Positions 1,535 through 22,620 of a stretch of DNA of 64,000 bases are shown here, in pieces. This stretch comes from Marivita sp. (GTDB taxonomy: Bacteria > Pseudomonadota > Alphaproteobacteria > Rhodobacterales > Rhodobacteraceae). Made by a program: the position numbers and the translations under genes. The notes under the pieces were generated by a model. That model worked only from the letters and a program-made list of their open reading frames with translations. It was not told where the DNA came from and made no database searches. Position 1 is the stretch's first letter. The number at the start of each line of letters is the position of its first letter. The DNA lies in assembly GCF_020055635.1 (NCBI RefSeq), contig NZ_JAIPUT010000005.1, positions 62,001-126,000 on the forward strand, read 5' to 3'.

Positions 1535-2248
1535 ATGACGCAGTTCTCGAGGCGCGCGATACTCAAACAAATGGGAGCCGTCGGATTGGCCTCTGCCGTC
1601 CCGCAGACCCTGGCCGCGCAGAACCCGTATGCCGAACTGGATGGTGTCCCGTGGTTCTTTCTGTCCGACACCGAAGCACGGTTCCTCTCGGCCTTCTGTG
1701 ACGTGCTCATCCCCGAAGACGAGTTTCCAAGCGCCACCCAGGCCGGAGTGATCGATTTCATCGATCTTCAGCTCGCCACGGGCTACGGCCAGGGCGCGGG
1801 CCTATACATGAAAGGCCCCTTTCGCAGGGGCACACTCTCGCAGGGCTACCAGGCCGAGATGGTTCCTGCCGCATTGATCCGCAATTTCATCGCCGCCGCA
1901 ATCGAGCAAGGTGGCGACCTTGCTGCCGCCGATGCCGAGCAGCGCGAAGGGGTGGTCAGCGCGCTGTCGGAAACCGAGGACTCCTTTGGCGGTGCGCAGG
2001 GGCGGGTCGTGTTCGAGGAACTCTGGGCGCTCACCAAGGAAGGCTATTTCGGCGATCCGCTTTATGGCGGCAATCGCGATTACGCGGGCTGGGAGATGGT
2101 CGGATTTCCGGGAGCGCACGCCTACTACCTTGAATTCGTCGACAAGAATGTCCCGTACCGCGCCCCGCCCAAGGGGATCGGACATATCCCCGGAACCAAC
2201 CGTTCTGCCTCGCTCGGGGCCAGCGCGATGATGAAGAAAGAGGGCTGA
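1535..2248 (+). CDS. Gluconate 2-dehydrogenase subunit 3 family protein (small subunit of GMC dehydrogenase)
   Basis: This 237-residue protein opens with a twin-arginine signal (SRRAILK at residues 5-11, a hydrophobic stretch, cleavage near AQN). The mature part resembles the gluconate 2-dehydrogenase subunit 3 family (segments FLSAFCDVLIPEDEFPSAT and AGVIDFID). In such enzymes the small subunit carries the Tat signal and takes the flavoprotein partner to the periplasm as a hitchhiker. The next gene, 1 nt downstream, encodes that GMC flavoprotein and shows no signal of its own, which fits. It is the first gene of an eight-gene operon. Confidence 0.85.
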   Translation: MTQFSRRAILKQMGAVGLASAVPQTLAAQNPYAELDGVPWFFLSDTEARFLSAFCDVLIPEDEFPSATQAGVIDFIDLQLATGYGQGAGLYMKGPFRRGTLSQGYQAEMVPAALIRNFIAAAIEQGGDLAAADAEQREGVVSALSETEDSFGGAQGRVVFEELWALTKEGYFGDPLYGGNRDYAGWEMVGFPGAHAYYLEFVDKNVPYRAPPKGIGHIPGTNRSASLGASAMMKKEG

Positions 2249-2249
2249 G

Positions 2250-4028
2250 ATGGTCACGGAACTGCCGAAAACAGATGTCGTCATCGTCGGATCGGGATGG
2301 ACCGGCCTTGCTGCGGCTTATGAGCTGGCCAATGCGGGGCAGCGGTGCGTGGTTCTCGAACGGGGCGGCTGGCGCCACTCGACCACCAGCTTTGGTGCGC
2401 CGGAAGAGCACGACGAGCTGAAATACGCGCGCCAGAAGGAACACATGATCGACACGCCGATCAAGACGCTGAGCTTTCGCAATGACGGGTCCCAGACGGC
2501 TTTGCCAATGCGCCGGTTGGGGTCGTTTCTTCCCGGCAAGGGGCTGGGTGGCGCCGGCATCCACTGGAACGGACAGCTCTGGCGGCCCTTGCCGAGCGAT
2601 CTCAACATGGCGTCCCATTATTCGGAACGGTATGGGCAAGGCATCCTCGACGGGCTCAGCGTGCAGGATTGGGGCGTCGACTATGACGAGCTGGAGCCGC
2701 ATCTGAATTTCTTCGAAAAGATATGCGGCACCGCAGGCATCGCCGGAAATGTCGAAGGCGAGGCTGCCGAGGGTGGCAATCCGTTCGAAGGCCGCCGCAG
2801 CGAGCCCTATCCCAACCCGCCGATGAAAAGCTCGCCGCCGCAGGACATCTTCCGACGCACCGCCGAGCAGATGGGCTACAACCCGTTCCATATGCCGTCT
2901 GCCAATGTCACGCGGGCATACGAAAACCCCTATGGTGCCCAGCTTCATCCCTGCGTCTATTGCGGCTTCTGCGAAAGGTTCGGCTGCGGCTATCTGGCCA
3001 AGGCCGACCCGATCATCTGCATCTACGACGTCCTGAAGGATCACGAGAACTTCGAGTTGCGCACCGGGGCGCATGTGCTGCGTGTCGAAAAATCGGCAGA
3101 TGGCCAGACCGCGACCGGCGTGACCTATGTCGACGAGGACGGCCGCGAGCTTTTCCAGCCGGCCGACACGGTGTGCCTCAATGCCTATGCACTCTGGAAC
3201 GTGCACCTGATGCTGGTCAGCGGTCTTGGCACACCCTATGACCCGCAAAGCGGCGAAGGCACGGTGGGACGCAATTATTCCTACCAGACGATGGCCGCGG
3301 CATCGGTGTTCTTCGAAAAGGATGTCTGGTCGAACCCGTTCATGGGGGCCGGTGCGATGGGCATGACCATCGACGACTTCAACGGCGACAATTTCGATCA
3401 CGCCGATCTGGGCTTTGTCGGCGGCGGGTATATCAGCGCCAACCAGACCAACGGACGCCCGATCAATTACCAGCCGACCCCGCCCGATACGCCTTCCTGG
3501 GGCCGCGAATGGAAGCAGGCGGTCCGAGAAAACTACCTGCACCATATCGGGATCGTCGTGCACGGATCATCGGTTTCGGTTCCGCAGAACTATCTCGACC
3601 TGGACCCCACCTATGTCGATGATTACGGCCAGCCGCTGTTGCGGATGACCTTCGACTTCCCCGAAAACGACCGCCGGATGTCCAGCTACGTGCTGTCCAA
3701 GGCCGAGGAAATCGCGCGGAACATGGATCATGTCCGGGCGGTGAGCACCTCGAACCAGGCGGCCGAGGGCGAAAGTTATTCGGTGGTCCCATACCAGACC
3801 ACGCACAATGTCGGCGGTGCGGTTATCGGCACCGATCCTTCGACAAGCGTCGTCAACAGGTTCGGGCAGATGTGGGATCACCACAATGTCTTCGTGTTCG
3901 GGGCCTGCCTGTTTCCGCAGAACCTTGGCTACAACCCGACGGGTCCGCTGATGGGTCTGGCATATTGGACGCTCGATCACATGAAGTCCGACTACCTCGA
4001 AAACCCACGCCCGCTGATGGATGCCTGA
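2250..4028 (+). CDS. GMC family oxidoreductase (FAD-dependent dehydrogenase, large subunit)
   Basis: At 592 residues this is a full-length GMC flavoprotein of the gluconate/sorbose-type dehydrogenase group. The FAD-binding GSGWTG motif sits near residue 14, with the ribose-binding glutamate in VVLERGG. A glycine-rich GKGLGGAGIHWNG segment lies near 90-102, and the C-terminal catalytic segment has the THNVGG histidine followed by NPTGPLMGLAYW. A Cys cluster (CVYCGFCERFGC) occurs near 235. It probably oxidises a sugar, sugar acid or alcohol in the periplasm and passes electrons to the cytochromes encoded next. The substrate cannot be read from sequence. Confidence 0.88.
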   Translation: MVTELPKTDVVIVGSGWTGLAAAYELANAGQRCVVLERGGWRHSTTSFGAPEEHDELKYARQKEHMIDTPIKTLSFRNDGSQTALPMRRLGSFLPGKGLGGAGIHWNGQLWRPLPSDLNMASHYSERYGQGILDGLSVQDWGVDYDELEPHLNFFEKICGTAGIAGNVEGEAAEGGNPFEGRRSEPYPNPPMKSSPPQDIFRRTAEQMGYNPFHMPSANVTRAYENPYGAQLHPCVYCGFCERFGCGYLAKADPIICIYDVLKDHENFELRTGAHVLRVEKSADGQTATGVTYVDEDGRELFQPADTVCLNAYALWNVHLMLVSGLGTPYDPQSGEGTVGRNYSYQTMAAASVFFEKDVWSNPFMGAGAMGMTIDDFNGDNFDHADLGFVGGGYISANQTNGRPINYQPTPPDTPSWGREWKQAVRENYLHHIGIVVHGSSVSVPQNYLDLDPTYVDDYGQPLLRMTFDFPENDRRMSSYVLSKAEEIARNMDHVRAVSTSNQAAEGESYSVVPYQTTHNVGGAVIGTDPSTSVVNRFGQMWDHHNVFVFGACLFPQNLGYNPTGPLMGLAYWTLDHMKSDYLENPRPLMDA

Positions 4029-4040
4029 AGGAGACACGCC

Positions 4041-4847
4041 ATGAAACAGATCCGCTACGCAGCGCTCATTTCTCTTCCTGTCCTGCTGGGGGTGACATGG
4101 GCTGTTCAGGCGCAGGATTTTTCGGACGGACCCTCGGTTCAATCGCTGGAGTCGCGGCTTGACGATGACGGCGTCAGCTTCAACGCCCAGGTCGAGCAAC
4201 GGCCGGATGATGACCTTCTCGAGATCGGTCGCCTGGTGGCGATGGGGGGGGCGGAAAACGGCGGGTCGGGCATGGCGTGCATCACCTGCCACGGAACGGA
4301 TGGCCACGGCGACGGATCGGGCGCGTTTCCCCGGCTCGACGGTCAGCCGGGCTGGTACCTGTACAAACAGCTGGTCGATTATGCGAGCGGCGCCCGGCCG
4401 AACCAGGTCATGAGCGCGATTGCCGATCGGTTGACGGAACATGAAATGGAGGCGGTCTCGGCTTATTACGGTGCGATGCCGACCGGAACCATTCCCAAGC
4501 ATGGCGACGTCGCCGGAACGCAGTTGCAATGGGGGGGGCAGCTTGCCGCCGTCGGATCGGCCGAAAAGGGCATCCCTGCCTGCGTCAATTGCCACGGGGC
4601 GAATGGAACGGGGCTCGCGCCGTCGGTGCCCTATCTCGCCGGTCAATACGCCAGCTACATGGAACTTCAGCTCCAGCTTTGGAAAGAGGGTGTCCGCGAC
4701 AATGACGCGATGAACGTCATGTCCTCCATCGCCAACAAGATGGACGAAAGCGACATGCATGCCGTGGCCGAATATTACGCGCGCGTCACCTCGGAAGAGG
4801 CGCAGGTCGAAGACGAGCAATACGTTTCGCCCTCCGCGATGGAGTAG
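4041..4847 (+). CDS. Diheme cytochrome c
   Basis: The 268-residue product has a Sec signal peptide (cleavage near VQAQD) and two cytochrome c domains with heme motifs CITCH at 80-84 and CVNCH at 181-185. This two-domain layout recalls cytochrome c4. Lying 12 nt after the GMC dehydrogenase and just before a membrane-bound cytochrome and oxidase subunits, it is the natural first electron acceptor of the dehydrogenase. Gluconate dehydrogenases use a triheme cytochrome subunit, so this one is smaller than the classical partner. Confidence 0.88.
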   Translation: MKQIRYAALISLPVLLGVTWAVQAQDFSDGPSVQSLESRLDDDGVSFNAQVEQRPDDDLLEIGRLVAMGGAENGGSGMACITCHGTDGHGDGSGAFPRLDGQPGWYLYKQLVDYASGARPNQVMSAIADRLTEHEMEAVSAYYGAMPTGTIPKHGDVAGTQLQWGGQLAAVGSAEKGIPACVNCHGANGTGLAPSVPYLAGQYASYMELQLQLWKEGVRDNDAMNVMSSIANKMDESDMHAVAEYYARVTSEEAQVEDEQYVSPSAME

Positions 4848-4853
4848 CGGCCC

Positions 4854-5372
4854 ATGTCTGATCGTGACCGCAATTCGGGTCTGTTGGGAACCGTATTCGC
4901 CATCCTGTCCGGAGTGATCGTCTCGCTCGCCGTGGGGGTCTGGGCCTTGGGGACACCTGGCAATGATCCCGTCGGCGCTGCTGCCGTGACGGCGGGGACG
5001 TTCATGGAGGGCAAATTTCGCTGGCTGCGCGCCGAACCCGAAAATGTGCCGCAAGACTGGGTGGAAATCAGCAAGACGGTCCGGGGCGGTGACCCGCAAC
5101 GCGGTGCGACGCTGATCGCCCAATATGGCTGCGGATCCTGCCACGTCGTTCCCGGTGTCGCACGTGCCCATGGCACGGTCGGCCCGGACCTCAGCGGCTT
5201 TCGCGATCGTGCCTATATCGGCGGCGTCCTGTCGAACGAGCCGGGCGATCTGGTTGACTGGCTGATGAACCCGACGACGCATGCGCCCGACACCGCCATG
5301 CCTGATCTTGGCGTGACCGAAACGGATGCGCGTCACATGGCGTCCTACCTCTACACGCTTCGAGGCTCGTGA
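4854..5372 (+). CDS. Membrane-anchored monoheme cytochrome c
   Basis: This 172-residue protein has one uncleaved N-terminal membrane helix (about 10-32), a short linker and a single cytochrome c domain. The heme site is CGSCH at 93-97, and M149 in DTAMP is the likely distal ligand. It starts 6 nt after the diheme cytochrome. The position between a soluble cytochrome and oxidase subunit II suggests an anchored electron shuttle on the periplasmic face. Confidence 0.87.
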   Translation: MSDRDRNSGLLGTVFAILSGVIVSLAVGVWALGTPGNDPVGAAAVTAGTFMEGKFRWLRAEPENVPQDWVEISKTVRGGDPQRGATLIAQYGCGSCHVVPGVARAHGTVGPDLSGFRDRAYIGGVLSNEPGDLVDWLMNPTTHAPDTAMPDLGVTETDARHMASYLYTLRGS

Positions 5373-6304
5373 TGGGCTCGACCCTGGACCAGTTCGGATC
5401 GCAGACGACGTTTGCAGATGCCGGGATTGGCGCTGCAAGAACGGTGTGGCTGACCAATTCGATGTCGATCATCAGCCTGGTGATCCTGGCCTTCGTCATG
5501 CTGGTTGCCCTGTTCGCGTGGCGCAGCACCGGGGGCGGACGGGTCTGGTGGATCATTGGCGGCGGCATCGTCTTTCCGCTGATCACGCTAAGCGTGCTGA
5601 CCGTGGCCTCGGCCACGACGCTTCGGAGCATCACGGGCGAGGCGCAGCCCGAAGCGCCGGTGATCGAGATCACGGCTTACCAGTACTGGTGGGACGTCGT
5701 GCATCACTCGGAAGGCCGGTCGCTGCGGGACGCGAATGAAATCGTGCTTCCGTTGAACATGGCCGTCACGCTGCAATTGAAATCCAACGACGTCATTCAC
5801 TCGTTCTGGGTGCCCTCGGTGTCGGGGAAAATGGACATGATCCCCGGCCGGATCAACGAATTGACCATCACCGCGACAAAGGAAGGCCGGTTTCGAGGCC
5901 AATGCGCCGAGTTCTGCGGCCTGTCTCATCCTCTCATGGCCTTCGAGGTCCTGGTTTTGCCGGTCGAGGAATACGCGGCCTATCTCGAAAGCCTCGACGA
6001 AGACGCCCGCGATGCCGTCACGCCCCAGCAGCGCCGTGGCAAGGAGGTCTTTCTGACATCCGGATGCACCGCCTGCCACGCGGTCAATGGCGTGTCCGAG
6101 AACGGACGCCTTGGCCCCGACCTGTCCCGCGTCGGGGCGCGCGCAAGCCTCGGAGCGGGCATGTGGCGGATGAACAGGGGCAACCTCGCAGGCTGGATCG
6201 CCGATGTCGGCGACATGAAGCCCGGCGCTCAGATGCCGTCCTACAACGACCTCAGCGGCCCTGACCTCCGCGCGGTGGCGGCCTGGTTGGAGAGCCTCAA
6301 ATGA
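5372..6304 (+). CDS. coxB: Cytochrome c oxidase subunit II with fused cytochrome c domain
   Basis: This subunit II is of the caa3 type. Two N-terminal helices (about 30-50 and 58-80) precede a cupredoxin domain with all CuA ligands: H143, C178, E180, C182, H186 and M189. A cytochrome c domain follows with CTACH at 232-236. The ATG at 5372 overlaps the preceding stop by 1 nt; an in-frame GTG at 5369 would add one residue. Such subunits receive electrons through their own heme domain. The protein is 310 residues long. Confidence 0.93.
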   Translation: MGSTLDQFGSQTTFADAGIGAARTVWLTNSMSIISLVILAFVMLVALFAWRSTGGGRVWWIIGGGIVFPLITLSVLTVASATTLRSITGEAQPEAPVIEITAYQYWWDVVHHSEGRSLRDANEIVLPLNMAVTLQLKSNDVIHSFWVPSVSGKMDMIPGRINELTITATKEGRFRGQCAEFCGLSHPLMAFEVLVLPVEEYAAYLESLDEDARDAVTPQQRRGKEVFLTSGCTACHAVNGVSENGRLGPDLSRVGARASLGAGMWRMNRGNLAGWIADVGDMKPGAQMPSYNDLSGPDLRAVAAWLESLK

Positions 6305-8820
6305 CGGCCGTCGACGAACCCCAAAGCTATTCCGGTACCAGGAAGGGTGAGCCGGACAAGACGATCGAAGAGGTCTGGGCGCAGCCGACCGGCTTGCGCT
6401 GGTGGTCGTCGGTCAGCCATCGGGTTGTCGGCAAGCGGTTCATCTATACCGGCTTCGCCTTCTTCATCATCGCCGGGTTCCTGGCCCTTCTGGTGCGCAC
6501 ACAGCTGATCGTGCCGGGCAACACGTTCCTCGACAACGAGACCTACAACCAGGTCTTCACGATGCACGGAACACTGATGATGTTCCTGTTCGCCATCCCC
6601 ATTCTCGAAGGGTTCGCGGTTTACCTGATCCCCATGATGCTGGGCGCGCGCGACCTGATCTTCCCGCGGCTCGGACAGTTCGGGTATTACTGCTATCTGT
6701 TCGGCGGGATCATCGTGCTGTCGTCCTTCCTTTTCGACGCGGCCCCGGACGGTGGCTGGTTCATGTACGTTCCGCTGACCACGAACGCCTTCACGCCGGG
6801 GGTCTCGGCGGATTTCTGGCTGATCGGCATCACCTTTGCCGAGATCGCGTCCGTCACCGCTGCGGTCGAACTCATCGTGGCGATCCTCTGCGCACGGGCG
6901 CCGGGAATGAGCCTGACCAAGATGCCGATCTTCGCCTGGTATATCCTGATCACCGCCTTCATGATCGCCATCGGCTTTCCGCCACTCATCATCGGGTCGA
7001 TCCTGCTCGAGGCGAACCGGCTTCTGGGGTTGCCGTTTTTCGACCCGACGGTGGGTGGCGATCCGCTGCTGTGGCAGCACCTGTTCTGGCTGTTCGGTCA
7101 TCCCGAGGTCTACATCATCTTCCTGCCTGCCGCCGGCATGGTCGCGACGATCCTGCCGACCTTTGTGGGCAAGCCGCTTTTCGGCTACGGGTTCGTCGTC
7201 GCCGCGGTGATCTCGATGGGGTTCATCAGCTTCGGCCTCTGGGCACACCACATGTTCACCACAGGTCTGCCGATCCTGTCCCTCTCGCTATTCTCGGCGG
7301 CGTCGACGATGGTCGCGGTGCCGACCGGTGTGCAGATATTCGCCTTCATTGCCACTCTGGCGCAGGGCAGGCCGCGCATGACGACACCCATGCTGTTCGT
7401 GATGGGCTTCCTCTTCATCTTCGTCCTTGGCGGTCTGACCGGGGTGATGCTCGCCAGCGTTCCGTTCAACTGGCAGGCACATGACAGTTACTTCGTGGTG
7501 GCGCACCTGCACTATGTCCTGATTGGCGGAATGGTGTTCCCGCTCTTTGCGGCCTTCTATTACTGGGCGCCGCACATCACCGGTCGCATGATGTCCGAAC
7601 GGCTGGGCAAATGGGTGTTCTGGCTGATGTTCATCGGCTTCAACGCGACCTTTTTCCTGATGCACGTGACCGGTCTGCGCGGCATGCCACGGCGCATTGC
7701 GACCTACCCGGAAGGCATCGGCTGGGACCGGCTGAACCTGCTCAGCACGCTGGGTTCCTACATCCTGGCCGCCGGGGTCGCGCTTTTCATCTTCGATTTC
7801 ATCCGCCATCTGCGTCACGGTGAACGCGCCGGACGCGACCCGTGGCGCGCGGGAACGATGGAGTGGCTCTACCCGACCGTGGCGATCGGCTTCAACTTTC
7901 ACGCCATCCCGCCGGTCGAGACCCGCGAGCCGCTGTGGAACAATCCGAACATGCTTGGCAAGAACGCCGAGGACGTCGAGGGTGTCATGCGCAAGATGCA
8001 TGATGGCCGGCGCGAAACCATCGGCTGCGATCCCGTCAGCGGTTCGCCCGTGCAGATCGTGCGCCTGCCGCACCCGACCTTCACCCCGATGTTCACGGCC
8101 TTCGCGCTGGCCGTGGCCTTCGCTGCCACGATTGCCAGTGCCTATTTCGTGGCCATCGCCGGGATCGTCGCGGGTCTTCTGGGGTTCACCATCTGGGCAT
8201 GGGAGCCGTCCGACAGCGGTGTGACCCGCGATGCGGGAATGGGATATGTCCTGCCCGTCAACATGATCGAGAAGCGCAGCCACATGCACATCGCGACTGT
8301 GGGCACGATGCTTGTCCTCTACGCGCTGCTAGGCTCCCTGATCTTTGCCCTGCTGTACCTGTGGAACGTGTACCCGAACTTTGCCGCGCAGACGGCGCAG
8401 CCGAACCTCCTCTGGACGGGTCTTTCCATGCTGGCCGGACTGGTCCTGTTGATCCTTGCCATGATCAACCGACGGGTCGCGGTGGCCGACAAGATCGGCC
8501 TTGCGACGGTGATGAACCTTGCCGTGATCCTTGCCAGTATCGCCTGCACGGCGTGCCTTGCTCTCGCAATCCAGCGGACGGACCCGTGGGGTACGGCGCT
8601 TGGAGCGACCATGTGGGCGACGCTTGGTTTTGTCGCGTTGAACCTTTTCATCACCCTGTACTGGGCCCTCTTCAACGCCGCGCGCAAGGTGACCGGGCGC
8701 GTCGGGGCGGGGCAGAGCCTGCCTGATTTCAATCTTGCAACCTATGCCAAGGGCACGGCCGTGATGGTGCTGATCACCGGCGGCCTGTTCCTGGCGGCAA
8801 CCTTGGGAGGTCTGTCATGA
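6301..8820 (+). CDS. ctaD: Cytochrome c oxidase subunit I fused to a subunit III-like domain
   Basis: The 839-residue protein starts with a full heme-copper oxidase subunit I. Low-spin heme ligands are H89 and H404, CuB ligands H267, H316 and H317, and the high-spin heme ligand H402. GHPEVY at 266-271 places it in the A1-type group with the helix-VI glutamate, and GARD near 115-118 matches the D-channel entrance. From about residue 590 a second block of several membrane helices follows that looks like a divergent subunit III. Subunit I-III fusions are known in caa3-like and SoxM-like oxidases. ATGA overlap with coxB. Confidence 0.92.
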   Translation: MTAVDEPQSYSGTRKGEPDKTIEEVWAQPTGLRWWSSVSHRVVGKRFIYTGFAFFIIAGFLALLVRTQLIVPGNTFLDNETYNQVFTMHGTLMMFLFAIPILEGFAVYLIPMMLGARDLIFPRLGQFGYYCYLFGGIIVLSSFLFDAAPDGGWFMYVPLTTNAFTPGVSADFWLIGITFAEIASVTAAVELIVAILCARAPGMSLTKMPIFAWYILITAFMIAIGFPPLIIGSILLEANRLLGLPFFDPTVGGDPLLWQHLFWLFGHPEVYIIFLPAAGMVATILPTFVGKPLFGYGFVVAAVISMGFISFGLWAHHMFTTGLPILSLSLFSAASTMVAVPTGVQIFAFIATLAQGRPRMTTPMLFVMGFLFIFVLGGLTGVMLASVPFNWQAHDSYFVVAHLHYVLIGGMVFPLFAAFYYWAPHITGRMMSERLGKWVFWLMFIGFNATFFLMHVTGLRGMPRRIATYPEGIGWDRLNLLSTLGSYILAAGVALFIFDFIRHLRHGERAGRDPWRAGTMEWLYPTVAIGFNFHAIPPVETREPLWNNPNMLGKNAEDVEGVMRKMHDGRRETIGCDPVSGSPVQIVRLPHPTFTPMFTAFALAVAFAATIASAYFVAIAGIVAGLLGFTIWAWEPSDSGVTRDAGMGYVLPVNMIEKRSHMHIATVGTMLVLYALLGSLIFALLYLWNVYPNFAAQTAQPNLLWTGLSMLAGLVLLILAMINRRVAVADKIGLATVMNLAVILASIACTACLALAIQRTDPWGTALGATMWATLGFVALNLFITLYWALFNAARKVTGRVGAGQSLPDFNLATYAKGTAVMVLITGGLFLAATLGGLS

Positions 8821-18422: not shown

Positions 18423-18513
18423 TATCGACCGGACAGGGTTCACTGCAACACGCGGAACATCCGTCTCGCGGCATCCGTTCATCCTGCACCAATGGTGAAC
18501 AAGGATCCTCTCG

Positions 18514-19992
18514 ATGCCCCCGACCGACCCGATGAGCCCGCCCGAGACCGTCGCCGCGTCCATCGAAGCATCGCAATGGCTCGACGCGCCCGCCTACAGG
18601 GTGGCCAATCTGGTGTCCACCACGCTTGAACTGGCCCCGGTAACGGCGCGCAAGGTGCAGGATGCGCTGCACGGAACCTGGCTCGGACATCCCTTGCATC
18701 CTGCTTTGGCAACGCTGCCGATCGGGACGTGGACGCTGGCCTTCGGTCTTGATACCGCCGCAAGCCTTCGCCTCAACCAAAGCACGCGAGTGGCGAAGAC
18801 GGCGGATATCGCGCTGCAGGTGGGCGCGGCCGGAGCCGTGGTTGCGGCGGCGTCGGGCATGGCGGACTGGCGGCAGATTCACGGCCGCGACCGGCGGACC
18901 GGGCTGGTCCATGCCGCCGTCAATGCGACCGCCTTGGGTCTGACGCTTGGCTCCCTCGCATTGCGACGGCGTGGGCGGCGTGCTCCGGCGCGTGCCCTGA
19001 GTGCCGCAGGGTGGCTGGCGTTGATGGGCGGAGCCTGGCTCGGCGGGCACATGGTCTATCGGCGCGGCGTGGGGACTGACCACGCCGACCGGTCACCCGA
19101 ACCGCGCGAATACGTTCCGGTGATCGCCGCCGACGCGCTGAAGGAAGACCGTCCGGTCCGTGTCGCCGTGCCGGACCCCGCGGCCCGCGCCGAAGTGGGG
19201 ATCGTCCTCGTGCGGCACCGTGGCCGCATCCATGCGATGGGATCGCGCTGTTCGCACATGGGTGGTCCGCTTGACGAGGGGTGGGTGCAGGATGGCGGCA
19301 TCGTCTGTCCCTGGCACGGATCACGCTACTGCCTTGCCAGCGGACGCGTTCAGAACGGCCCGTCAACGGCCCCGCAGCCGCGCCATGCGGTGCGCGTGAG
19401 GGACGGAGTGGTGGAAATCCGCCGCCAGCAGGAGCCCGGCGACGAGGCGCTGACGCTCGATGACATGAAACGCGCCGCCGCTGCACCCATGCCAGAGGTG
19501 CCCGAGGGTGCCCGCAAGGCGGACGAGGTGCTTTTCGAACACCACGAGATGATGCGGCGGCTGTTCGAGCGGATCGCAGCGATGTCGCCCGACGACCCGG
19601 AGCGGCGGGACATGATGCGCGTTCTCGCCGGCGAGCTGGAAATACACGAGCATGTCGAGGACGAGATATTCTATCCCGCCGTCCGCGCCGTCAGCGAAGA
19701 TGTCCCGGTCGCCCATGCCGAGCATCAGCAGCTTGCGGACATGCTCGCGGTGACGCTGCGCCTTGGCACGTCCTCGCCGGAGTTCGAGGCGCAGTTGCAG
19801 GCGCTGCATCAGGCCGTCGATCACCATGCCAGTTCCGAGGAACACTCGATGTTCGTCGAGGCGCAAAGATTGGGCGATGCGCGACTGAGGGTGCTGGGTG
19901 CGCAGATCGAGGACATGCTCGACGAGGAACGCGAGAGCCGCGCCCGCACTGCGTTCCGAAACCTGAAGACACGGTTACTGGAAGGCCTCTGA
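18514..19992 (+). CDS. DUF2231 - Rieske [2Fe-2S] - hemerythrin fusion protein
   Basis: This 492-residue protein combines three modules. Residues about 55-185 form a DUF2231-like membrane part with the motif LGHPLHPALATLPIG and roughly four helices. Residues about 195-302 form a Rieske domain with both ligand pairs, C246/H248 (CSHMGGPL) and C265/H268 (CPWHGSRY). Residues about 338-450 form a hemerythrin-type domain with H343/H344, HEHVEDE, HAEH and HHASSEEH di-iron ligands. A redox or oxygen/NO-sensing role at the membrane is likely but not shown. Start 18514 has AAGGA upstream. It stands alone between the Mla operon and a convergent cellulase. Confidence 0.85.
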   Translation: MPPTDPMSPPETVAASIEASQWLDAPAYRVANLVSTTLELAPVTARKVQDALHGTWLGHPLHPALATLPIGTWTLAFGLDTAASLRLNQSTRVAKTADIALQVGAAGAVVAAASGMADWRQIHGRDRRTGLVHAAVNATALGLTLGSLALRRRGRRAPARALSAAGWLALMGGAWLGGHMVYRRGVGTDHADRSPEPREYVPVIAADALKEDRPVRVAVPDPAARAEVGIVLVRHRGRIHAMGSRCSHMGGPLDEGWVQDGGIVCPWHGSRYCLASGRVQNGPSTAPQPRHAVRVRDGVVEIRRQQEPGDEALTLDDMKRAAAAPMPEVPEGARKADEVLFEHHEMMRRLFERIAAMSPDDPERRDMMRVLAGELEIHEHVEDEIFYPAVRAVSEDVPVAHAEHQQLADMLAVTLRLGTSSPEFEAQLQALHQAVDHHASSEEHSMFVEAQRLGDARLRVLGAQIEDMLDEERESRARTAFRNLKTRLLEGL

Positions 19993-20040: not shown

Positions 20041-22620
20041 CTACACGATGGCGAGGTCGTCGAAAATCAGGCCCGTCTGCACGGCGACAAAGCCGACGTC
20101 CTCGGGCTTGTGCCAGACCTCCCAGTCAGACGAGCGCTCCTCTTCGAGGAACACCGAGACGCGGTTGTCCTGCATCGTTCCCAGCCGAACGGTTGTCGGG
20201 TCGGACCCGTCCATTGTCTGCATGTCGGCGAGAAATGCAAAACTGGACGGGTCGAACCCCGGCATATCGATCTTGTGGATGTCATTGGACACGACCTTGC
20301 CGGTGTTGCCCGACAGGAATTCCGCATCAGCACCGTTGCCTTGGGAAACCGCGATCCAAGACAGGTTTTCGGTGCCGTAGCCGGATTTGCTTTCCTGCGA
20401 TTGCAGACGGATGTCGAAAGACGCGTTCGTCACGTTGCTGATCCGGTCGGTGACCGCGGCGCTGTTGGTGTCGCTGGCCACCTGCGCCAGAACCGTTGGC
20501 GCTGCGTCGAATGCGGTTCCGAACGCGACCGTACCAAGCGTTCCGTTGGTTGCGTCCGATCCGGCGACAAGGGTCTGGCCGTTGACCGTGTGGACACCGC
20601 TTTCGACCGCGAGCCAGCTGACCGTCTCGGTCTTGTGGCGACCGTCGAGGTAATCCCATTCGTCCAGTTGGAACTCGAAGCCGGTCTCGTCGATATTGCG
20701 CACCCGCATGGTCGAGGGGGCCGATCCGTCGCTGGTTGGCGGACCCATCACCACCGAGGCATCGTCGAGCGCTTCGGCAAAGTCGACGCGGAACCAGGTC
20801 TTCGCATCGGTCTGCCTGAACGTGACCGTGCCGGCCTCTCCGATCAGCGCGTCCTTTGCCTCGGCCTCGCCGACCGGCGTGCCGATGTCCTCGGCCTCGT
20901 CGATCACCGCATCCGTTTCCGTGTTGGCGCCGATGGCCAACCCGGCCAGCGCCCCCGAGAGACCCGCGTTGTAATCCAGCGACACTTCGTTGCGGACGTA
21001 ATCCCACCGGTCGTCGGCATAGCTGCCCGACTTGTCCGGACCACCGACCAGACCGCCAGACAGCGTGTGCTCGTTCGGCAAGGATGTGTCCCAGTTATGG
21101 CCGGACGCATTGCGGTGATGCGGATTTTCCGGGAAGTCTTCGCCGAAACCGATGAGATAGCTGAAGGCGTCGGGGTTGTCGCCCAGCAGGTAGTCGATCT
21201 GGTCAGCGGCGAAGGCGCGCGTCATGTCGGCCTGTTCCGCCTTGTTCTGCCCGTCAAGCACATCGGCGAATTGCATCGAAATGAACGCGGTGTTGGCCGC
21301 ATAGCGGTTCGCGCCCCACTCGTGAAGCCAGACAAGCCCCTCGTTGGTTTCGGTGCCCTCGAGCCGATGGAGCTTTGCCGTCCATTCCGACATGTAGGTT
21401 TCCAGATGCGAGACATACTTGTCGTTGCCGGTGAATTCGGCGAGACGCACCGCGGTGCCCATGGATTTGTCATCCCACCCGAAGGACCAGTACATGCCGC
21501 TTGGGGCATAGTAGGATTGGGCCTTTTGCAGGTATTCCGTCTCTCCCGTCGCCTCGTAGAGCCATGTCGCGGCCCAGGCCAGTTCGTCCTTGTAGCCCGA
21601 CCAGGACTTATAAAATTCAGCGGCCTCGGGCACCGTGTCGTTGTACGTGCCCTGGTAAGCCTCGGAAAAGGCGAACAGTTGCCGGGCATCGGCGAGCAAC
21701 TCTGCCGCGCGCTGGTCCTGACCGTTCTGGCCCAGAAGGATCGCGCCTGCCGCAAGGGCCGCAGCGGTTTCGGCCGAGACCTCGGTTCCCGGGGCCTGTG
21801 CCGACACCGCGTAGGTCGGGCGTGCCATGGTCATGTCTTCGGCAGCCCCCCAATCGGCGTGATCCAGACCGCCATTTCCGACCTGAACATAGACCACGTC
21901 ATCGGCCAGGGTTGCCGTCCCATTGTCGTCATAGGTGCGCGCAAGGTAATCCGTGACCCAGGAAATATGCGCGAGGATATCGCCGTCGCTGTCCGACGCT
22001 CGGTAGCCCTCGGCATAGTCGATGGCGCCCCAGGCAAGCGTCGTTGCGGCGTAGGCCATGGGCAGACCGAACTTGACGTGATCGCCCGCGTCGTACCATC
22101 CGCCGGTCAGATCGCGACCGACATCGGCGCCGTCCTGAAGCGCGCTGTCTCCACGCCACCCAATCGGGTGATCTTCGGGCAGATCGCCGGAATATTGCGC
22201 GTAGTAGAAGTCCATCGACAGATCGAGCGCGCTTGCATAGTCGCCGGTTCCGAAGGGCGACAAGGCAGCGACGTCGTTGCCCGCCACCGTAACATCCGAC
22301 AGGAAGTCCAGATCGTCCGGCGGCGTACCGGCCCCGGTGAAGCCGACGGTCACGCTTTGCCAGGGTCCGATGGATTTGCCCCATTCCGCGCCCGAAAGGG
22401 CAATGTGATCCGCGTCGATCCGGGTCGCGTTCATCCCCCAGGCGTTCTGGATGATCAGGTCATCCGACGCGACGATCAGATCCCAGCTGTCGATCCAGTC
22501 CTTGCTGGTGTTGGTCACGGTGATCGCCCCGTTGAAGCCGCCGTTCCAGACGGCAGAGACGCGATATCCGGCTTCGATATGCGGTGTGACAGTGTGGTTT
22601 TCTTGACCTGCGGAACTCAT
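20041..22620 (-). CDS. Glycoside hydrolase family 9 endoglucanase with CBM2 and C-terminal repeats
   Basis: The 859-residue protein starts with a CBM2-like cellulose-binding domain (about 10-98, W25, W47 and W87). A GH9 domain follows (about 125-565) with the nucleophile/base pair D177 and D180 in GGWYDAGDHVKFG, the HHR motif at 501-503 and the acid E545 in NEVSLDYNAG. Residues about 595-859 hold three related repeats of 70-80 residues that resemble H-type lectin-like modules. It should cut beta-1,4-glucan. No Sec or Tat signal is visible, so export by a type I or other route is inferred. It stands alone. Confidence 0.88.
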   Translation of the reverse strand: MSSAGQENHTVTPHIEAGYRVSAVWNGGFNGAITVTNTSKDWIDSWDLIVASDDLIIQNAWGMNATRIDADHIALSGAEWGKSIGPWQSVTVGFTGAGTPPDDLDFLSDVTVAGNDVAALSPFGTGDYASALDLSMDFYYAQYSGDLPEDHPIGWRGDSALQDGADVGRDLTGGWYDAGDHVKFGLPMAYAATTLAWGAIDYAEGYRASDSDGDILAHISWVTDYLARTYDDNGTATLADDVVYVQVGNGGLDHADWGAAEDMTMARPTYAVSAQAPGTEVSAETAAALAAGAILLGQNGQDQRAAELLADARQLFAFSEAYQGTYNDTVPEAAEFYKSWSGYKDELAWAATWLYEATGETEYLQKAQSYYAPSGMYWSFGWDDKSMGTAVRLAEFTGNDKYVSHLETYMSEWTAKLHRLEGTETNEGLVWLHEWGANRYAANTAFISMQFADVLDGQNKAEQADMTRAFAADQIDYLLGDNPDAFSYLIGFGEDFPENPHHRNASGHNWDTSLPNEHTLSGGLVGGPDKSGSYADDRWDYVRNEVSLDYNAGLSGALAGLAIGANTETDAVIDEAEDIGTPVGEAEAKDALIGEAGTVTFRQTDAKTWFRVDFAEALDDASVVMGPPTSDGSAPSTMRVRNIDETGFEFQLDEWDYLDGRHKTETVSWLAVESGVHTVNGQTLVAGSDATNGTLGTVAFGTAFDAAPTVLAQVASDTNSAAVTDRISNVTNASFDIRLQSQESKSGYGTENLSWIAVSQGNGADAEFLSGNTGKVVSNDIHKIDMPGFDPSSFAFLADMQTMDGSDPTTVRLGTMQDNRVSVFLEEERSSDWEVWHKPEDVGFVAVQTGLIFDDLAIV

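Follow-up and report, generated by a model that had tools for sequence, protein, structure and literature searches.

What might a membrane protein do that carries a Rieske [2Fe-2S] domain and a hemerythrin domain in the same chain? The question arises from a gene at 18514..19992 on the forward strand of the window, as the whole 64,000-nucleotide stretch of Marivita sp. DNA analyzed here is called. The gene is supported by its ORF call, by Pfam and by homologs. It starts with ATG and encodes a DUF2231-Rieske-hemerythrin fusion of 492 amino acids. A probable ribosome-binding site, recognized from the upstream sequence (AAGGA, 18501..18505, + strand), lies 8 bases upstream of the ATG. Proteins of the hemerythrin-like type are reactive toward NO, peroxide or O2, and joining a hemerythrin to a one-electron Rieske partner and a membrane anchor in one chain makes a candidate electron path. 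The answer put forward here, tentatively, is that the fusion may be a redox protein anchored in the membrane that belongs to the general stress response of Alphaproteobacteria and handles NO/peroxide (or O2).

Architecture and Conservation of the Fusion

A Pfam scan of the ORF at 18514–19992 placed all three domains above their curated cut-offs in a single 492-residue chain, and the three-module protein described in an earlier note on this DNA is borne out by the ORF and Pfam calls. An AlphaFold model of the whole fusion was of middling quality (12-sequence input, mean pLDDT only 68, pTM 0.41). In order, the model presents a set of three short helices at the N-terminus, four long ones (residues 61–183), a β domain and a helical bundle that ends in a long C-terminal helix. 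When the model was searched with Foldseek, the hemerythrin-like protein (HLP) of Mycobacterium kansasii ranked first (PDB: 6q09, E = 9.8e-6, TM-score 0.80 when normalized by target length), ahead of Rieske ferredoxins.

One scan of genome contigs, which reached close relatives only, identified seven further fusion loci (L004–L010). Their hosts include Loktanella (L005), Jannaschia (L006 and L008), Falsirhodobacter (L007) and Citreimonas (L009), all genera of the Rhodobacterales; L004 and L010 are two copies in one Alphaproteobacteria MAG and are 77% identical to each other in DNA. Two additional fusions (L105 and L106) were found in genomes of the window's own family. The copy of Citreimonas salinaria (L009, taken to be identical with G047/L017) has its frame interrupted around residue 181, near 5513, between the DUF2231 and Rieske domains, and is either a decayed gene or the product of a sequencing error. 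An uninterrupted frame is found in nine copies, that of the window included, and any two of these differ at about 19% or more of their DNA positions. Since their mutual DNA identity is at most about 81%, all nine are separate sequences. The eight further in-frame copies, which are alphaproteobacterial and mostly from the Rhodobacterales, are 70–74% identical and rule out a chance or assembly chimera.

Among the nine members, the mean pairwise dN/dS is about 0.17 for DUF2231, 0.12 for the Rieske domain and 0.09 for the hemerythrin domain, values that are rough given a dS of about 1.2; the N-terminus and the linker gave 0.30 and 0.31. The averages were taken over 36 pairs with saturated-dS pairs omitted (0 to 8 depending on the segment, and 1, 0 and 2 in the modules themselves). 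Since dN/dS is low in each, all three modules are kept by purifying selection. Mean pairwise identity decreases from the hemerythrin (86%) to the Rieske (80%) and the DUF2231 domain (74%).

Distribution of the Fusion

A search for the same architecture had been proposed in the earlier note. It was carried out and the fusion proved rare in the genomes sampled; the names of the three domains did not occur together in the literature searched, which covered few subscription journals. Counting its own genome, the fusion is present in 1 of 17 genomes of the genus and in 3 of 390 genomes of the order, and the single whole-fusion match among 289 genomes of the class is the window's own. A family sample of 295 genomes from 295 genera held the whole span in two, its own and the frame-broken G047. 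The genome G048 (contig 16; L018/L113) contains the hemerythrin part only (residues 354–491, 86% identity), which is read as a probable fusion remnant because the first 87 residues of its frame do not match the fusion. The lipoprotein gene upstream of the fusion is present in 17/17 members of the genus, and the fusion is absent from the other 16; thus, the occurrence of the fusion is the pattern of a gene gained and lost.

The idea that the fusion might be widespread in Pseudomonadota was not borne out in the samples. DUF2231 was matched in 55/299 genomes of the phylum, own included, and among 30 phylum DUF2231 loci, Rieske and hemerythrin domains were found on the DUF2231 ORF only in the window's own (L097); a weak Rieske match at L104 (E = 0.003) is on an ORF other than that of DUF2231. 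No place in 72,556 plasmid records covered 80% of the fusion query, and no relative was found in viral contigs. A plasmid of Roseomonas marmotae bears a short piece of hemerythrin sequence (67% identity over residues 347–416), with an IS110 transposase about 200 bases away. The contig scan reached close relatives only and actinobacterial chromosomes were covered narrowly, so the fusion may also occur elsewhere.

The Hemerythrin Domain

The hemerythrin HHE domain (residues 337–447; 19522..19854, + strand) was identified by Pfam (PF01814, E = 2.4e-12, 47.9 bits against a cut-off of 25.3) and is HLP-like by PDB comparison and by Foldseek. A full set of His and Glu ligands had been read from the sequence earlier and the alignment agrees, with the H, HxxxE, H and HxxxxE positions present in 9/9 in-frame members and the ligand candidates H343/H344, H378, E382, H401/H404, H437/H438 and E442/E443 all invariant. 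The di-iron ligand candidates H378-x3-E382 are encoded at 19645..19659 (+ strand), and H437/H438 with E442/E443, which lie on the last bundle helix, at 19822..19842 (+ strand).

When the PDB was searched to E = 10, the sole distinct sequence to match the domain was M. kansasii HLP (PDB: 6q09, 6tyj, 6u3l; E = 6.8e-20). From the available part of its published description (PMC8913304), this protein acts as an NO peroxidase, converting NO and H2O2 to nitrite, and shows weak catalase activity; NO turnover by HLP alone proceeds only with H2O2 as a cosubstrate. Its reduction is limited to a single electron and yields a mixed-valence state (PMC8913304). The same portion of text lists four His, two Glu and one Tyr as the iron ligands and describes the Tyr as unique to mycobacterial HLPs. 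Residues Y62/Y63 of 6q09 align with F386/Y387 of the fusion, and the text available does not number the Tyr ligand. When compared with NF053874, the PA2171 ribosome-binding persister family, the domain scored 48.3 bits, below the equivalog cut-off of 190. Two other hemerythrins encoded in the same genome are unlike that of the fusion (BLAST: 23% identity, E = 0.46; 29% identity, E = 0.007).

Binding of O2 or iron by the hemerythrin domain could make the fusion a membrane iron/oxygen sensor or store, with the Rieske center only reporting or resetting the oxidation state. Hemerythrin domains are indeed known as O2/redox and iron sensors from the accessible parts of two reports (PMC9388753, PMC12022348); however, none of the Pfam domains in the chain is a signalling or degradation output and crude gene calls revealed no regulator among the common neighbors, and a sensor or store is considered unlikely. 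The earlier note had proposed a membrane-bound sensor or reductase that joins a [2Fe-2S] center to a di-iron site. The membrane-bound pairing of the two centers fits the sequence; the sensor part gains no support, as Pfam shows no signalling output in the chain.

The Rieske Domain and the Origin of the Parts

The Rieske domain (residues 201–288; 19114..19377, + strand; PF00355, E = 9.2e-17) is predicted to have a fold like that of the Rieske ferredoxins. Its motif, C246-x-H248-x16-C265-x2-H268, is complete in 9/9 in-frame members. The 9-member alignment thereby confirms the four ligands that had been claimed for it, C246 and H248 in C246-S-H248 (19249..19257, + strand) and C265 and H268 in C265-P-W-H268 (19306..19317, + strand), as invariant. 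Ser270 is kept as well. The cluster loops (residues 244–255 and 266–269) were modeled by AlphaFold with a pLDDT below 50.

By fold, the nearest structures identified by Foldseek are electron-donating Rieske ferredoxins. In the PDB sequence comparison, the top places go to a Rieske domain-containing protein (PDB: 3d89) and the iron-sulfur subunit of b6f (PDB: 8hn2), with most ferredoxins ranked lower. Since the two rankings differ, the class of the Rieske domain is not firm. The nearest NCBIfam profiles, HcaC and AndAb, were matched with 44–46 bits, below their equivalog cut-offs of 113–150.

The first 314 residues of the fusion match two-module proteins from Streptomyces, Rhodococcus, Nonomuraea and Kitasatospora with 37–42% identity (5 proteins), the matches running from residue 10–47 to residue 303–314 of the fusion. 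No hemerythrin match was found in stretches of 7–11 kb around the five genes. As both halves of the fusion point to Actinobacteria, the sequences suggest, but do not show, an actinobacterial origin of its parts.

With DUF2231 and Rieske domains joined and no hemerythrin in 5/5 of the actinobacterial records, and with a Rieske domain closest in fold to ferredoxins that feed oxygenases, the fusion might be an electron-transfer protein for some other partner. The DUF2231-Rieske part would then be the working one and the hemerythrin would shield it from oxygen or deliver iron/O2. This reading is somewhat doubtful: a Pfam scan of 27 neighbor genes identified no oxygenase, and the standing of the hemerythrin as the most conserved of the modules speaks against an accessory role.

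The DUF2231 Domain

DUF2231 is described in Pfam as a "predicted membrane protein". In the fusion, the domain (PF09990, E = 1e-17, 64.9 bits against a cut-off of 26.4) covers residues 58–189 (18685..19080, + strand) and is composed of four long predicted helices according to Pfam and AlphaFold. It was aligned in a set of 44 sequences made up of 9 fusions, 5 actinobacterial proteins and 30 others. The alignment leaves out L097, which duplicates the window's own sequence, as well as L094 and L102, whose frames were badly cut; L103 had no profile hit and L104 was not included.

The fusion conforms to a pattern that was derived from this same alignment, HPxHP in TM1 and a His in TM3. The first element is H59-P-L-H62 at the start of TM1 (18688..18699, + strand), where H62 is found in 43/44 and H59 in 40/44 sequences, and the second is H133 (18910..18912, + strand), present in 43/44. 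An acidic residue, D80, is present in 42/44. A fourth His differs in its placement, being at position 184 in 24/30 of the other sequences and at position 179, near the end of TM4 (19048..19050, + strand), in 14/14 of the Rieske-linked sequences, which are largely close relatives, versus 5/30 of the others. Across the 9 in-frame fusions H53, H59, H62, H123, H133 and H179 are invariant. In the model, the conserved histidines sit near helix ends, and they are a candidate metal, heme or quinone site. The fusion offers DUF2231 a testable redox role.

Modeled alone, the DUF2231 domain reached a pLDDT of 77. Foldseek returned no match with E < 0.001 and none that stands out, and VIA-align of the model produced generic four-helix bundles only. 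A longer DUF2231 partner was sought in the frames of L092, L094 and L095 (408, 430 and 241 residues) and rejected, as these contained no second Pfam domain.

Charge counts place the C-terminus in the cytoplasm for 27/30 of the other DUF2231 proteins and the Rieske domain outside for 4/5 of the actinobacterial DUF2231-Rieske proteins. For the fusion family the counts tie (mean K+R of 8.0 versus 7.7; members 4 versus 2, with 3 equal) and do not decide on which side of the membrane the Rieske and hemerythrin domains lie.

The conserved histidines, the shift of the fourth His in Rieske-linked proteins and the outside placement in the actinobacterial relatives would all suit a quinol-linked enzyme built as a much reduced bc1. 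The DUF2231 histidines would hold heme b or a quinone, and electrons would pass to a Rieske domain outside the membrane and from there to an external di-iron site. This arrangement seems quite improbable, however, given that the DUF2231 model lacks a Foldseek match at the threshold above and that charges do not decide the topology of the fusion family.

Upstream Sequence and Gene Neighborhood

The reading favored here, that of a stress-response redox protein, draws on the 91-base gap before the fusion gene. A pattern match identified an exact EcfG-type box within it, GGAAC-N17-CGTT, at 18454..18479 on the + strand and 60 bases before the ATG (GGAACATCCGTCTCGCGGCATCCGTT). In the available parts of two studies, EcfG promoters are given as GGAAC-N16-CGTT for Sphingopyxis (PMC7083833) and GGAAC-N17-20-GTT for Sphingomonas (PMC6599016). 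Neither hemerythrin nor Rieske occurs in the main texts of these two papers, and hemerythrin and EcfG were not found together in the literature searched.

With both strands counted, the genome contains 51 exact N17 matches versus 59 for a reversed control; the pattern is thus not over-represented, which means that most single matches are due to chance. The notable point is the position of the box in the 91-base gap before the fusion, where about 0.0005 exact boxes are expected on one strand at the genome's own rate. Within 300 bases upstream, exact boxes occur for 4 of the 55 predicted genes of the window versus about 0.65 expected. All of these box statistics are post hoc, the EcfG hypothesis having been formed after stress-type neighbors were seen and not as a pre-planned test. 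The search also covered the anti-sigma factor NepR, for which the genome has two matches above the cut-off.

The comparison of upstream sequences was extended to 14 regions from 10 loci. Exact N16–18 boxes lie within 300 bases upstream at three of them (the fusions of the window and L009, and the metallo-hydrolase gene of L008), with 0.012 expected per region. One-mismatch boxes (0.135 expected per region) lie before the L008 fusion, the metallo-hydrolase genes of L006 and L112 and the esterase gene of L112. The fusion gene itself has no exact or one-mismatch box within 300 bases upstream in 7/10 loci (L004, L005, L006, L007, L010, L111 and L112), with distances at L006 counted from a point three bases upstream of the ATG; for L004, L005, L007, L010 and L111 there is none within that distance in any upstream region examined.

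Other boxes were observed in the same genome. Contig 44 (158 kb) holds 8 of the 51 exact matches versus about 1.6 expected by length. In the window, exact GGAAC-N16/18-CGTT boxes are found 167 bases before an mlaE-like gene (14080) and 51 bases before 44850, and an exact EcfG-type box is found 59 bases before 1535. From 1535 to 8817, genes for a Gluconate-dehydrogenase-3-like protein, a GMC oxidoreductase, a cytochrome c, COX2 and COX1 are encoded on one strand, possibly a stress-controlled unit for sugar oxidation with a terminal oxidase.

The neighborhoods of ten loci were compared with six proteins as queries and with crude gene calls, and no neighbor gene was common to all of them. At three loci (L006, L008 and L112) the fusion is preceded by a metallo-β-lactamase-fold gene, with an erythromycin-esterase family gene between the two in L112. 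DUF2254 is found downstream in two loci (L004 and L006), and sodium/proton exchangers upstream in L004 and L010, the copies that share a MAG. Neither the metallo-hydrolase nor the L010 exchanger nor DUF2254 was matched in the window. After the L009 fusion, and at this one locus only, is a gene of the FMN-reductase family whose product is a possible electron donor. In the window, a convergent gene (20041–22620, - strand) encodes a GH9 glycoside hydrolase with CBM2 and H-type lectin domains identified by Pfam.

Proposed Function

A stress-induced NO/peroxide enzyme is favored because the one-electron site of an HLP would suit a fused one-electron Rieske partner. Under stress, EcfG would become active and the fusion gene would be transcribed. 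The Rieske [2Fe-2S] cluster would act as a one-electron relay linking the di-iron site to a donor, which could be in the membrane (quinol, or a cofactor on histidines of DUF2231) or else be a soluble reductase. The di-iron site would then react with NO and/or H2O2, and possibly O2, as the M. kansasii HLP does, so that nitrosative or oxidative species may be cleared at the membrane. Fusion to a Rieske domain would provide the electron supply for repeated turnover. A more specific version, in which electrons run from the quinol pool through cofactor histidines of DUF2231 and the Rieske domain to a hemerythrin di-iron site that reduces NO, H2O2 or O2, would make the fusion a self-contained membrane enzyme, and it is held to be improbable.

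A role in NO or oxygen defense had already been raised for this protein. As far as NO is concerned, the suggestion gains some support from an NO peroxidase as the only PDB sequence match of the hemerythrin domain and from the general-stress promoter match. Through the EcfG box, a link between the fusion and the general stress response of Alphaproteobacteria can be tested directly. If the more specific, quinol-fed version is true, the fusion would provide both a hemerythrin enzyme fed by a Rieske domain and a redox function for DUF2231.

Comparison with Known Systems

For residues 201–306, the closest hits in NCBIfam and in Foldseek are the Rieske-type ferredoxins of ring-hydroxylating oxygenases (HcaC, AndAb, BphA3, CarAc); unlike these ferredoxins, the Rieske domain of the fusion belongs to a membrane chain. 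The Rieske proteins of the bc1 type have an extra disulfide Cys pair beside the ligands. This pair is absent from the fusion, which reads C-S-H-M-G-G and C-P-W-H at those places.

An electron-providing module and a di-iron, peroxide-reducing domain also share one chain in the [FeFe] hydrogenase-rubrerythrin fusion of Clostridium perfringens, judging by the title of its report (PMC11926857). The domains are different, however, and the part of that report available names no membrane or Rieske part.

Mycobacterial HLPs of the Rv2633c class include the closest solved relative of residues 336–474 (PDB: 6q09, M. kansasii), and the same His and Glu positions are found in both. In contrast to the fusion, the M. 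kansasii HLP was solved as a stand-alone monomer with neither a Rieske nor a membrane part.

The actinobacterial DUF2231-Rieske proteins, which include WP_331749106.1 and WP_331741223.1 and go by the name "Rieske 2Fe-2S domain-containing protein", have their domains in the same order as the fusion, with HPxHP or EPxHP, H133, GGH179 and the C-x-H...C-P-W-H ligands, and differ from it in having no hemerythrin domain in any of the five. Since the DUF2231-Rieske pair is known in Actinobacteria and the hemerythrin is akin to M. kansasii HLP, the fusion appears to be a new architecture built from known parts, and one that is undescribed as far as the literature searched goes.
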